DNA of 64,000 nucleotides. Source: Bacteroidetes bacterium GWF2_35_48. Lineage in GTDB: Bacteria > Bacteroidota > Bacteroidia > Bacteroidales > GWF2-35-48. Location: the NCBI GenBank assembly GCA_001769125.1, contig MEOG01000096.1, forward strand, positions 1 through 64,000. Direction: 5' to 3'. A program made the translations under genes and the position numbers. A model generated the notes under the pieces. The model saw only the letters and a list, made by a program, of their open reading frames with translations, had not been told where the DNA came from and ran no database searches. This document shows, one piece after another, positions 57,378 through 62,340 of the stretch. The stretch's first letter is position 1. Each line of letters opens with the position of its first letter.

Positions 57378-58178
57378 ATGAAGTCGTTAGAAAATAATTT
57401 GGATATTGATGAGATTACATTTGAAAAGCGTAACAAAGAATACGGTGCTTATGATCTCAGAAAAAATTACAAAAAACGTATGATTCTGTCTGTTTTTGTA
57501 GCTGTGGGTTTCCTGATGCTTTCAGTGGGAACACCTTTTATTCTTGCCAACATAAATCAGGGAGCAGGATTTGAGTTTATCAACAACCAAACAGTTACTG
57601 TAGACCTTATTGATAATCCGAATGACGAACCCTCTCCACCTCCCGAGCCACCGCCTCCTCCTCCCCCGGATAAATCACTAGAAAAAGCTGTGAAATTCGA
57701 AGCACCCAAAGTTGTTGATGATAGTGAAGCAGACGACGAAATTATGTCAATGGATGATATTTCTGAGAATTTGAAAAACGAAAACATTGAACCCGATTAT
57801 GATGATCAATTAGATATAAAACCGGAAAACAATGCGTTGATTGATGATTCAGAAATGGCTCCGCCTCTTACTTATGCAGAAGAAATGCCCGCATTCCCCG
57901 GAAGCGATGACGCGTTAATGCAATTTATCGGCAATAATATTATTTATCCGCAGGAAGCAAAAGAAATGAATATTCAGGGTAAGGTTTATATTTATTTTGT
58001 GGTCAACAAAAAAGGCAAAGTTGAAGATGTCAGATTAGAAAGAGGAGTAGACCCCTTGCTCGATAATGAGGCATTAAGAGTAATAAAATTATTGCCAGAT
58101 TTTGCTCCCGGAAAAATGGGAGGACACCCTGTTAAAATATCTTTGATTGTTCCTATTAAATTTACACTTGCTCCCTAA
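57378..58178 (+). CDS. tonB: TonB family energy transducer
   Basis: The 266-residue protein has the TonB layout: a short cytoplasmic N-terminus, a single membrane helix (MILSVFVAVGFLMLSVGTPFILANI, about residues 35-59), a Pro-rich linker (EPSPPPEPPPPPPPDK), an acidic middle, and a C-terminal TonB_C domain with IIYPQEAKEMNIQGKVYIYFVVNKKGKVEDVRLERGVDPLLDNEALRVIKLLPDFAPGKMGG. It couples the proton motive force to outer-membrane receptors. No exbB/exbD is nearby, as is common for extra TonB copies. The gene has its own terminator. Confidence 0.93.
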   Translation: MKSLENNLDIDEITFEKRNKEYGAYDLRKNYKKRMILSVFVAVGFLMLSVGTPFILANINQGAGFEFINNQTVTVDLIDNPNDEPSPPPEPPPPPPPDKSLEKAVKFEAPKVVDDSEADDEIMSMDDISENLKNENIEPDYDDQLDIKPENNALIDDSEMAPPLTYAEEMPAFPGSDDALMQFIGNNIIYPQEAKEMNIQGKVYIYFVVNKKGKVEDVRLERGVDPLLDNEALRVIKLLPDFAPGKMGGHPVKISLIVPIKFTLAP

Positions 58179-58194
58179 AAATAAATATCTTTTT

Positions 58195-58221
58195 TCAGGC
58201 CGGGTAAATCCGGCTTTTTTT
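58195..58221 (+). terminator. Terminator after tonB
   Basis: GCCGG (58199-58203) pairs with CCGGC (58210-58214) around a 6-base loop, followed by seven T. Confidence 0.85.
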
Positions 58222-58300: not shown

Positions 58301-59452
58301 ATGAAGAAATTATTCAATTTATTAGCCGCTCTGATTCTTGCATCAGGAAGCCTGTTTGCGCAAATCAATCCAACTTCTTCCCCCTATTATACAGATGGGA
58401 TTTACTCCATTACTGCAGATTCATCAATTGTTGGGAACAAAAAAATTGTAATGTACAAACCCAGTATTCCTCCGATTGTGAAGTATCCTGTTTTATTATT
58501 TCAACCGGGCGCAAATGGGTTGTTCGGTGGAACCATCAATGTTCATACCTATGATTTGTATTTAAAACATCTTGCATCTTATGGTTTTGTTACAATGGTT
58601 ATTGATGAAACATCTGCGGGATTTCCTTCCGGCACAACCATGTCGGCCTGCTTAACATGGGTTAAAGAGCAAGCAAGAAGCAGCAGCGGTCACTGGCTGG
58701 CAAATTATGCCGATACAAATAAAATTGTTGTGGGTGGTCATTCTAATGGAGGTGTGAATGCTTGCGAAACATTGGCAGATAACCCTTTAGACGTAGCAGG
58801 AATTGTATTTTTCGCATCGTACCCGAGCACTTTTCCAACTCCTAATATCAGCGGGTACACGGGGAAAGTTCTCAACCTAGCAGGTGAGGATGATGAATCA
58901 AGCACACCCTCTGCATGCTATACTGGTTATGGAAAATTTACATCCTCTGATTGCAAAACATGGGTGCTGATTACAGGAATGGGACATGGAGGTTTTGGAG
59001 ATTACGTGAATACAAGCCAGCCCGTTGGCTTCATCGGTCGTGATAATGCAACTGCTACTGTAAGACATTACCTTGTAAGTTTTATGTTAAGCCAGTTTAA
59101 AAATAACACAACTGCTGCAAATAATCTTTTTACATCTACCTTAAGACCTAACACAACCAGTGAGTTTGAAACAAGCTGTAGTACTACAACAAAAAACGAT
59201 TTAACATTAATGAATGAAGATATTTTTGTATATCCAAACCCCGCTATTGATAAAATATTTATTTCAATGGCAAATGAAATGCATGATAAAGCTTCTGTAA
59301 AATTGTATAATGCTACAGGGCAAATTTGTGCAGCTTCAACAGTGAATAATTCTTATGCTGAAATATCACTTGAAAACCTTCCGGTAGGAATGTATCTGAT
59401 TCGGGTTGAATCTGCAAATAGCATACAAATGCGCTACATTATAAAGCAATAA
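58301..59452 (+). CDS. T9SS-exported alpha/beta hydrolase (chlorophyllase/PETase-like)
   Basis: A 383-residue protein with signal peptide (FNLLAALILASGSLFAQ), an alpha/beta-hydrolase domain and a T9SS sorting domain (IFVYPNPAIDKIFISM, ending in MRYIIKQ). The triad is visible: nucleophile Ser148 in GGHSNGG, acid at Asp197 or Asp198 (AGEDDESS), His229 in GMGHGGFGD. Residues YPVLLFQPGANGLFGGTINVH and LKHLASYGFVTMVIDET match the chlorophyllase/dienelactone-hydrolase/PETase type of lipase-like domain. Substrates could be esters, including polyesters, but that cannot be shown from sequence. It stands alone. Confidence 0.85.
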   Translation: MKKLFNLLAALILASGSLFAQINPTSSPYYTDGIYSITADSSIVGNKKIVMYKPSIPPIVKYPVLLFQPGANGLFGGTINVHTYDLYLKHLASYGFVTMVIDETSAGFPSGTTMSACLTWVKEQARSSSGHWLANYADTNKIVVGGHSNGGVNACETLADNPLDVAGIVFFASYPSTFPTPNISGYTGKVLNLAGEDDESSTPSACYTGYGKFTSSDCKTWVLITGMGHGGFGDYVNTSQPVGFIGRDNATATVRHYLVSFMLSQFKNNTTAANNLFTSTLRPNTTSEFETSCSTTTKNDLTLMNEDIFVYPNPAIDKIFISMANEMHDKASVKLYNATGQICAASTVNNSYAEISLENLPVGMYLIRVESANSIQMRYIIKQ

Positions 59453-59518: not shown

Positions 59519-59755
59519 CGTCGCTGCGGCGACTCCGTGCCCAAAATTAGCCTCGTCTCAACGCAGGCAAAAAAGCACGCAGACGAGTGCAGGAATAGAG
59601 CATTTGCAAATGAATGAATTTTTGTTAAAATCACATTAACCTTAAAATTGGTAATCGGTGGCTGAGCCTTTCCACCGGCAGCGAAGCTGCACCCCAAGAA
59701 TCGCGTTCGTCTCAGCGCAGGCAGGCAGACGAGTGTGAGAGTAGGAGTCGAACGC
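59519..59755. repeat. GC-rich GCAGGCAG/AGACGAG hairpin repeats, two tandem copies
   Basis: CTCGTCT (59552-59558) pairs with AGACGAG (59581-59587) around AACGCAGGCAAAAAAGCACGC. A second copy has TCGTCT (59707-59712) and AGACGA (59727-59732) around CAGCGCAGGCAGGC. Related copies are at 62281-62340 and, degenerate, at 19257-19289. The gap 59453-59894 holds no gene; a possible -7 box TAATTTTG is at 59868-59875. Confidence 0.7.
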
Positions 59756-59894: not shown

Positions 59895-61133
59895 ATGAAA
59901 ATGGCACAGAGAAATAAAAAAAATATTTTAGTTGCAGCTTTAATAGCAATCGTGTTAATAAGTCAGGATGCAAACTCACAAGGGATTTTAGAATGGCGTG
60001 GAACGGATAGGAAAGGCGTTTTCAACGAAATAAACTTATTGGAAAAATGGCCGGAAAATGGACCTGCGCTTATATGGGAATTTGCAGGTTTAGGAAGCGG
60101 ATACGGCTCTCCCGTTATAACAAATAAAAACATTTTTATAAATGGGGAAATTGACACGATAAGCTATTTATTCGCTTTAGATTTAAATGGGAAATTTCAA
60201 TGGAAAACAGCCATAGGAACAGAGTGGGTGCAAAATTATCCCGGATCAAGAACTACTCCTACCGTCGTTGATAATCTTATATATGTTACTACCGGCATGG
60301 GGACACTTGCATGTATTGATGCAAATTCCCGAAAAAAAATTTGGTCTGTAGATTATACCAAAGATTTTCATGGTCCATTACCCCGCTTTGGATTCTCTGA
60401 GTCGGTTGCTTTTGAGGGTGATTTAGTTTTCTGTAATCCTGGATCAAAAGATACGAATGTTGTTGCATTAGACCGATTCACAGGGAACATAAAATGGATT
60501 TGCAAAGGGGCGGGTGAAATGACCTCTTATTGCTCTCCCCTTATTTTAAAAATAGGAGGGAAAAATATTTTAATAAATTTTTCGAAGAGCACTCTTATGG
60601 CGATTGACACAAAGGATGGAAAATTACTTTGGGAGCACAAACAACAGGGAGACGGCGATTGTCAGGTTAATACTCCCTGGTATGAGGATGGCTTTATTTA
60701 TTATATTGCAGGAAATGGAAACGGTTCTGTAAAACTTAAACTTTCTGACGATGGAACCAGCATCACCGAAGTCTGGAAAAATCTGGCATGTGATGGACTT
60801 ACAGGTGGGTTTATAAAATGGAAAGATTATATTTACTCAGCAGGGTACGAAAGAAGATTTTGGTACTCATTAAATGCAAATACTGGAAAAGTAATTGATT
60901 CACTTAAGTTCGATCGAGGAACAACTCATTTTGCTGATGGGAAATTATACCTTTACAATGAAAGAGGACAAATGGCACTTGCAAATCCAAATGGGTCTAA
61001 AATAGAAATCATAAGTTCATTTAAAATAACCAAAGGCACAAAGGCGCACTTTGCTCATCCTGTTATTTATAATGGAATTTTATATATCAGACATGGTAAA
61101 TCTTTATTGGCCTATAACATTAAAAAACAATAA
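59895..61133 (+). CDS. Secreted PQQ-like beta-propeller protein
   Basis: A 412-residue protein with signal peptide (ILVAALIAIVLISQDANSQ). The body consists of PQQ-like propeller blades: LFALDLNGKFQWKTAIG, LACIDANSRKKIWSVDY, VVALDRFTGNIKWICKG, LMAIDTKDGKLLWEHK, and others of the form ALxxxxGxxxW. The opening LEWRGTDRKGVFNEINLLEKWPENGPALIWEF is typical of PQQ-propeller proteins found widely in Bacteroidota and Planctomycetes. Whether a cofactor is bound is unknown. Its neighbour, the LolA-like gene, starts 2 bases after the stop, so they form an operon. Confidence 0.83.
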   Translation: MKMAQRNKKNILVAALIAIVLISQDANSQGILEWRGTDRKGVFNEINLLEKWPENGPALIWEFAGLGSGYGSPVITNKNIFINGEIDTISYLFALDLNGKFQWKTAIGTEWVQNYPGSRTTPTVVDNLIYVTTGMGTLACIDANSRKKIWSVDYTKDFHGPLPRFGFSESVAFEGDLVFCNPGSKDTNVVALDRFTGNIKWICKGAGEMTSYCSPLILKIGGKNILINFSKSTLMAIDTKDGKLLWEHKQQGDGDCQVNTPWYEDGFIYYIAGNGNGSVKLKLSDDGTSITEVWKNLACDGLTGGFIKWKDYIYSAGYERRFWYSLNANTGKVIDSLKFDRGTTHFADGKLYLYNERGQMALANPNGSKIEIISSFKITKGTKAHFAHPVIYNGILYIRHGKSLLAYNIKKQ

Positions 61134-61135
61134 AA

Positions 61136-61861
61136 ATGAAAACAATGAATGCAAAAATATTTTTTTTCGCAATCGTAATAATATTTTCTATTTCGGGATA
61201 TGCGCAAGAACTTAATCTGGATCAAATTCTGGATAAATACTATAAAGCTATGGCATTGGATAAATTTCAAAAAATAAACACGGTTCTTATGAGCGGAACC
61301 ACTATTCAAAATGACGCCATGCCATTAAAAGTATATAAAATGAGACCAGACTTTTTTTTAATGGAATTCGATGTTCAGGATATTACCGCTTATCAGGCCT
61401 ATGATGGTAAAACAGGATGGATGACTGCTCCCTGGACTGGTAACAACGCCCCGCAAATCATGAACGAAGATAGATTGAAAGATGTAAAAAACAGAGCCGA
61501 TTTTGATGGTCTGCTATACAATTTCAAGCAAAAAGGACATAGTTTATACCTAAATGGAACAGAGAAAATTGAAAACAAAGAAGCTTATAAAATAAAAATA
61601 ATACGCAAAGACGGGGGGAGTGAATTTCTGTATATTGACAAGGAAAATTTCTATATAATAAAAAGATTATCGTATAGAAATATAAGGGGACAGGAAATAA
61701 CTGTTGAAACCTATTATTCAGAATATAAAATTATTGAAGGAATTCCTTTTGCATTTTCTACAACAACATATTTTGGAGGACAATTATACTCAAGCTCCCA
61801 ATATGATTCCATTCAACTTAATGCTGAAATTGACACTCATATTTTTCAAATGAAAAAATAA
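61136..61861 (+). CDS. LolA-like outer-membrane lipoprotein-sorting protein
   Basis: A 241-residue protein with signal peptide (IFFFAIVIIFSISGYAQ) and a LolA/LolB-like half-barrel: LDQILDKYYKAMALDKFQKINTVLMSGTTIQNDAMPLKVYKMRPD, YDGKTGWMTAPWTG, and VETYYSEYKIIEGIPFAFSTTTYFGG. The DKYYKAxG-like start and the YDGxxGWxxxP motif are seen in the Bacteroidota outer-membrane lipoprotein-sorting family. It is co-transcribed with the propeller gene. Its role in lipoprotein traffic is inferred from the fold only. Confidence 0.8.
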   Translation: MKTMNAKIFFFAIVIIFSISGYAQELNLDQILDKYYKAMALDKFQKINTVLMSGTTIQNDAMPLKVYKMRPDFFLMEFDVQDITAYQAYDGKTGWMTAPWTGNNAPQIMNEDRLKDVKNRADFDGLLYNFKQKGHSLYLNGTEKIENKEAYKIKIIRKDGGSEFLYIDKENFYIIKRLSYRNIRGQEITVETYYSEYKIIEGIPFAFSTTTYFGGQLYSSSQYDSIQLNAEIDTHIFQMKK

Positions 61862-62280: not shown

Positions 62281-62340
62281 GTTCCGCCGCGGGATAGGCG
62301 ACTCAGCGCAGGCAAACAGGCAAGCAGACGATTTCCTGCT
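62281..62340. repeat. GC-rich GCAGGCAAACAGGCAAGCAGACG repeat
   Basis: CGACTCAGCGCAGGCAAACA followed by GGCAAGCAGACG is a third member of the GCAGGCAG family (59519-59755). The surrounding DNA is ordinary A/T-rich spacer. Confidence 0.6.

Follow-up and report, generated by a model that had tools for sequence, protein, structure and literature searches.

A putative T9SS-exported ester hydrolase with a PETase-like predicted fold and a variant active site in a Bacteroidota genome

The locus and its product

The gene lies in a 64,000-nucleotide stretch of contig MEOG01000096.1 from Bacteroidetes bacterium GWF2_35_48 (the whole stretch analysed, hereafter the window), where a complete open reading frame with an ATG start encodes a protein of 383 residues (Table 1). 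A sequence-only reading had described the product as a hydrolase with a Ser-Asp-His triad, a GHSNGG nucleophile elbow, a signal peptide and a T9SS sorting domain. The elbow is present around Ser148, both Ser148 and His229 are confirmed, and the acid, to which no number had been given, is Asp198 by alignment.

Table 1. Features of the hydrolase gene and its upstream flank (positions in the window)
Feature	Position	Strand	Basis
Alpha/beta hydrolase with T9SS tail, whole gene	58301..59452	+	ORF, Pfam, NCBIfam
Probable signal peptide, residues 1-20, cut before Gln21	58301..58360	+	By eye; Gln21 in 9/9 members
Catalytic domain, about residues 21-293	58361..59179	+	Model of residues 22-300; PETase-like fold
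Ala71 (QPGANG), at the place of the IsPETase Tyr87 aromatic clamp/oxyanion residue	58511..58513	+	Profile and multiple alignment
Ser148 nucleophile and Asn149 (place of the PETase Met)	58742..58747	+	Sequence, alignment
Tyr174 (SYP), subsite I aromatic; place of IsPETase Trp185 / HaloPETase1 Tyr180	58820..58822	+	Alignments, excerpts of papers
Asp198, putative catalytic acid	58892..58894	+	Alignment, strand order
Cys218, invariant; putative disulfide with Cys293	58952..58954	+	9/9 members; pairing predicted only
His229, catalytic base	58985..58987	+	Invariant in 9 aligned members
Cys293, invariant; putative disulfide with Cys218	59177..59179	+	9/9 members; pairing predicted only
T9SS type A C-terminal sorting domain, residues 310-383	59228..59449	+	TIGR04183 51.1 bits, PF18962 50.0 bits
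Terminator-like hairpin between TonB-like gene and hydrolase gene	58197..58216	+	1 found, shuffles mean 1.1

The N-terminus, MKKLFNLLAALILASGSLFA followed by Gln21, resembles a Sec signal peptide when judged by eye, and the Gln is invariant in all nine aligned family members; we grade the signal peptide as probable. The sorting domain scores well above both relevant cut-offs, as the earlier reading would have it: the protein covers TIGR04183 from position 1 to 72 of 72 (cut-off 23) and matches Pfam Por_Secre_tail (PF18962, cut-off 27). TIGR04183 is matched at E<=0.01 by seven of the nine members; the L021 and L025 sequences entered lacked their C-termini. SprA was the T9SS component for which the genome was searched, and a single frame of 2525 residues contains two SprA_N stretches (597 and 124 bits), with no match in any of 14 control genomes. 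The whole protein matches 59 places in its genome; besides its own gene and a locus on contig C93 (query residues 81-370), nearly all of these cover the C-terminal third only, which fits a genome with many T9SS cargoes. We suggest that the hydrolase is exported, the signal peptide taking it across the inner membrane and T9SS across the outer membrane, and that the sorting domain is probably cleaved afterwards.

Two relatives have unusual C-termini. The sorting domain of L021 (559-2316, minus strand) stops early and the open frame continues into TetR_N, a frameshift or an assembly fault; L025 (1-2346, minus strand) has no short tail and extends into a long protein of several domains that includes a CARDB-like stretch (782 residues inside the locus, open frame of 1165 residues).

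Upstream of the hydrolase lies a TonB C-terminal protein (Pfam; window 57378-58178), and downstream (window 59895-61861) are a PQQ/BamB-like beta-propeller and a protein that is weakly LolA-like, below the cut-off; we saw no link between any of these and the hydrolase. The neighbours differ among the window gene, L010 and L021-L025, save that L022 and L024 are both followed by the same kind of protein, which by eye carries a T9SS-like tail, and at none of these loci do they hint at a substrate. MHETase/tannase (PF07519) has no match in the genome, but the controls gave none either, which makes the search uninformative. The hairpin in front of the gene would point to its being transcribed on its own, but such hairpins are no more frequent here than expected by chance. 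TAnnTTTG, a Bacteroidota-like promoter pattern, is likewise at chance level (106 occurrences against 97 expected). The intergenic DNA also holds a 33-nt, G+C-rich looking repeat in three copies (window 59554-59586, 59708-59740 and 62299-62331), the other two sharing 61% and 85% identity with the first. The string GCAGACGAGTG occurs twice in the window against 0.01 expected.

Family assignment and predicted fold

The window protein scores above the Pfam cut-offs of two families, Por_Secre_tail and the general Abhydrolase_5 (PF12695; 51.7 bits against 27, E 1.1e-13), so that the latter is the only catalytic family assigned. Abhydrolase_5 matches all nine members at E<=0.01 and, together with the motifs that all nine have in common, the E-value indicates a match beyond chance. 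The PETase family PF12740 gives 23.2 bits, under its gathering cut-off of 28; L023 exceeds this value (30.2), L010 (17.3), L021 (13.6) and L022 (23.3) do not, and L025 has no match at E<=0.1, so that the cut-off misses five of the six members scored. The NCBIfam BHET hydrolase model is matched by six of the nine members at E<=0.01, the window protein being outside these with 14.2 bits against a cut-off of 520.

The sequence-only reading had placed the protein in a PETase/chlorophyllase type. What stands is membership of the alpha/beta serine hydrolases, a T9SS tail and a predicted fold like that of PET hydrolases and cutinases; neither named Pfam family passes. The Chlorophyllase family PF07224 matches all nine members at E<=0.01 (best E 1.1e-11), and L010 (34.7 bits), L025 (30.7) and L021 (27.6) exceed its gathering cut-off of 26, L022 (24.2) and L023 (25.3) falling below. 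The window protein, however, reaches 19.6 bits, and the sole chlorophyllase among the best 60 of 71 PDB matches is 8fjd at E 0.051. We have rejected a plant-type chlorophyllase for the window protein on its PF07224 score, and consider such an enzyme highly improbable.

Comparison of the family profile with a PETase-like group (seven sequences, E 1.7e-15), an Abhydrolase_5 group (two sequences, E 1.6e-14) and a chlorophyllase-like group (two sequences, E 6.2e-13) gives three strong and nearly equal similarities, and sequence alone therefore does not assign the protein. This near-equality, with Abhydrolase_5 as the only catalytic family above its cut-off, favours a second interpretation, in which the exported esterase acts on a natural ester, low-molecular or bound to polysaccharide (acetyl, feruloyl or lipid esters, for example), and has no activity on polyesters. 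It would agree with our preferred reading, a PETase-like exported esterase, on catalysis and export, and would differ on the substrate. Against it, PETases and cutinases lead the structure comparisons among the best 50 matches, and the four neighbouring proteins scanned with Pfam contain no carbohydrate-active family. We regard an esterase restricted to such natural esters as a genuine though minority possibility.

PET hydrolases also lead the PDB search with a six-member family profile (9xv6, E 7.1e-12), in which dsPETase05 and HaloPETase1 follow at E 6.1e-11 each, their printed segments being identical. The full-protein model, built with nine sequences, has a mean pLDDT of 77, and the model of the catalytic domain (residues 22-300, 17 sequences) has a pLDDT of 88 and a pTM of 0.90. 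With the latter, VIA-align places GlacPETase (8x6v) first (Z 32.4, rmsd 2.1, 249 aligned residues), followed by PETases at Z 28-29; the full-length model again gives GlacPETase first. For both models, PET hydrolases and cutinases akin to them make up the best 50 matches in Foldseek and in VIA-align. Ranked by Foldseek E-value, HaloPETase1 comes third for either model, and dsPETase05 is also in the Foldseek lists; neither is among the best 50 of VIA-align with either model, which we count neither for nor against them. A PETase-like predicted fold does not by itself show function.

The GHSNGG family and its active site

GHSNGG, Q(P/L)GAN, SYP and the catalytic His are common to all nine aligned members. 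His229 sits in GMGHGG, and the residue after the catalytic His is Gly or Ala throughout (Gly230 in the window protein). The acid lies at a GEDD/GSED step after a predicted strand (residues 189-195), where the alignments point to the second Asp as Asp198; L028 requires a shift of one residue to bring its Asp into this column. Subsite I of the window protein consists of Ala71, Asn149 and Tyr174. Profile alignment to PDB chains and the multiple alignment place Ala71 at the aromatic oxyanion/clamp position and Asn149 at that of the Met, and in the multiple alignment Tyr174 occupies the position of IsPETase Trp185. After GAN, all nine members carry an enlargement of five or six residues (the window protein reads GLFGGTI there) that is absent from every other alignment row covering the region; loop 1 of PE-H, an enzyme outside our alignment, is likewise longer according to excerpts of PMC12442448. 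Six of the nine members have GLGA or GFGA after SYP, close in the profile alignment to a GLGH stretch of dsPETase05. The window protein is outside these six, and its post-Tyr loop, longer than that of IsPETase, is yet the shortest of the nine. That the N of GHSNGG differs from the GHSMGG of the main PETases had been noted before; this is true, but it is no private oddity, as all nine members have it. The string GHSNGG occurs in none of the papers whose running text was searched, and none of these texts combines GHSQGG with the terms PETase and oxyanion hole.

If the enzyme acts as its homologues do, Ser148 would attack the ester carbonyl with the help of His229 and Asp198, the oxyanion would be held by the main-chain NH of Ala71 and that of Asn149, and water would release the acyl-enzyme.

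The family is real yet patchy in its occurrence. When its own genome was searched with the catalytic domain, no second copy came to light, and a contig scan for the closest relatives, which reaches near relatives only, found one locus, L010, 51% identical and from an uncultured Flavobacteriales MAG. A single-sequence search of the relatives set gave matches at E<=0.001 in 10 of 99 genomes, its own included and the other nine weak (E 4.6e-8 to 9.5e-4); G001, the one other genome of the genus, had none at this threshold. Profile searches at E<=1e-10 found matches in 2 of 395 genomes of the phylum (its own and one with a distant GHSMGG-type protein), 6 of 393 of the order (its own and five with family members) and 4 of 395 of the class (its own, that of member L028 and two distant). 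At the same threshold, one family-level group had matches in seven of ten genomes, five with members (an interrupted one, L024, counted) and two with GHSMGG-type proteins, and another group in one of three. L024 (G559 contig C37, 233-1006) is broken by a single in-frame TGA, from a pseudogene or a sequencing error. It is omitted from the nine-member alignment, as is L026, which ends at a contig edge, and L027, L031, L032, L034 and L037 were dropped as duplicates of genes already included. T9SS and the Flavobacteriales origin of L010 point to a Bacteroidota genome, and the subfamily, a small one, is probably of Bacteroidota as well.

A maximum-likelihood tree was built with partial sequences of four PETases as references; L018 and L019 were omitted from it (other hydrolase types by eye), and L017 was trimmed to its first hydrolase domain. 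In this tree the GHSNGG family forms a separate clade with support 100. The clade lies outside the four references, among which supports are weak (44-86), and it is weakly placed with respect to the chlorophyllase-like and Abhydrolase_5 groups (supports 44-56). On such a tree, a substrate in common with the PETases cannot be read from ancestry. The PETases compared are about 20-28% identical to the window protein.

Relation to known PET hydrolases and likely function

Bacteroidota PETases with C-terminal sorting domains, to which the sequence-only reading had alluded, are indeed on record: in the excerpted text of PMC8767016, PET27, PET30 and their relatives are secreted alpha/beta hydrolases with a PorC-type sorting domain. 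Table 3 of that paper gives Bacteroidota and reference PETases an aromatic-Met-(Trp/Tyr/Ala) binding site. The window protein shares the Ser148-Asp198-His229 triad (Asp by alignment) with type I/II enzymes and with PET27/PET30, whereas both the aromatic residue at the Tyr87 place and the Met after the nucleophile are missing, Ala71 and Asn149 standing instead; its site is thus Ala-Asn-Tyr, and it falls below the PF12740 cut-off. According to excerpts of the same paper, PET28 and PET29 have a full Phe-Met-Trp site and no measurable PET activity, so even the full motif does not predict this activity.

A stronger PETase match than the window protein is encoded in the same genome. L005 (contig C93, 61895-62800) is a paralogue, a T9SS-tailed exported hydrolase with GHGF and GHSMGG that scores 50.6 bits against PF12740, above the cut-off of 28. 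Its best PDB matches are 6ky5, a 'PET hydrolase' that we take to be an IsPETase mutant (E 2.4e-13), and several further entries of IsPETase. At the third subsite position the alignment gives Ala for L005, as is found for PET38 in Table 3 of PMC8767016. L005 is about 20% identical to the window protein and resembles it in being a serine hydrolase with a T9SS tail and in the Cys of the CKT strand; a CK cysteine aligning with Cys218 is present in seven of the eight proteins of a comparison set made up of L005 and seven GHSMGG relatives.

The nearest parallel to the window active site is that of type III PETases (HaloPETase1, dsPETase05, PmC, R75estA). According to excerpts of PMC12442448, these degrade PET without the clamp or the Met and have a GHSQG lipase box, and reintroducing aromatic residues or the Met cuts product release, a result that is also cited for dsPETase05 in the excerpted text of PMC13396203. 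GlacPETase and HaloPETase1 are described, in the part of PMC13234336 seen, as having no M5 motif. The N of GHSNGG does not exclude PET activity, because type III enzymes have GHSQG and no clamp; it is neither an argument against polyester activity nor evidence for it. Type III enzymes and the window protein have in common the alpha/beta hydrolase fold, a GHS-[amide]-GG lipase box and the lack of an aromatic clamp residue facing the Tyr of subsite I, which would leave the pocket of the window protein with a single aromatic wall, Tyr174. Subsite I is Thr-Gln-Tyr in type III, and Ala-Asn-Tyr here. An extended loop 3 and activity at high salt also characterise type III; the corresponding stretch of the window protein, after Tyr174, exceeds that of IsPETase in length but is the shortest in its family alignment. 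The window protein also differs in its longer oxyanion loop (GANGLFGGTI), its T9SS tail, the position of its cysteines, and Gly230 in place of the Phe that follows the catalytic His in type III (subsite II). The HaloPETase1 disulfides C64-C126 and C273-C276 have no counterpart: Cys117 lines up with C126, no Cys lines up with C64, and the C-terminal pair cannot form because Cys293 is the only Cys of the catalytic domain after His229. GlacPETase, the closest predicted fold among the best 50, is 20% identical to the window protein and has a lipase box printed as GFSMGG.

The protein could be viewed as a genuine polyesterase that acts measurably on PET, the Bacteroidota equivalent of type III enzymes, in which the Tyr174 wall and the extended loop replace the clamp. 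This proposal draws on the comparison of Thr-Gln-Tyr in HaloPETase1 with Ala-Asn-Tyr here, on HaloPETase1 and dsPETase05 being among the top sequence matches of the catalytic domain, on the Foldseek rank of HaloPETase1, and on the GLGA/GFGA stretch near the dsPETase05 GLGH. It is countered by the absence of the type III GHSQG (GHSNG in all nine members), of the Phe after the catalytic His and of the disulfide positions; moreover, the window protein lacks GLGA/GFGA, and the tree does not group it with dsPETase05. We consider measurable PET activity unlikely. It would be a sharper form of the ester-hydrolase reading, with which its odds overlap.

In the end, we favour a hydrolase of carboxylic esters that works outside the cell and belongs to the PETase/cutinase-like branch of the alpha/beta hydrolases, in a subfamily with its own binding site (probability about 0.7). 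In nature it probably cleaves a hydrophobic ester or polyester found outside the cell; activity on aliphatic polyesters is plausible, and activity on PET is possible but not indicated. The earlier interpretation holds in part: the PETase-like predicted fold and T9SS tail agree with it, the PF12740 and PF07224 scores below cut-off do not support its family call, and the clamp aromatic and the Met are replaced. The best description is a PETase-like exported esterase with a novel active-site variant, a reasonable candidate for polyester assays and not a recognised plastic-degrading enzyme; at present it adds one more exported esterase of putative function.

A bolder proposal, to which we attach low odds, is that a further clamp-less kind of polyesterase exists beside types I-III, a T9SS-exported Bacteroidota lineage acting on aliphatic and aromatic polyesters with an Ala-Asn-Tyr subsite and the enlarged oxyanion loop. 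If true, it would escape the GxSMG motif and, for five of the six members scored, the Pfam PETase cut-off. Searches for PETases rely on profiles and motifs, and type III enzymes have shown that active PETases exist outside GxSMG (PMC12442448, in excerpt). The GHSNGG family adds a further conserved outlier, with a T9SS tail and a predicted fold like that of PETases, whose pocket departs at two of the three subsite I positions in all nine aligned members. Were it active on polyesters, neither the clamp nor Met/Gln would be needed; were it inactive, the family would provide a natural negative control for fold-based prediction.
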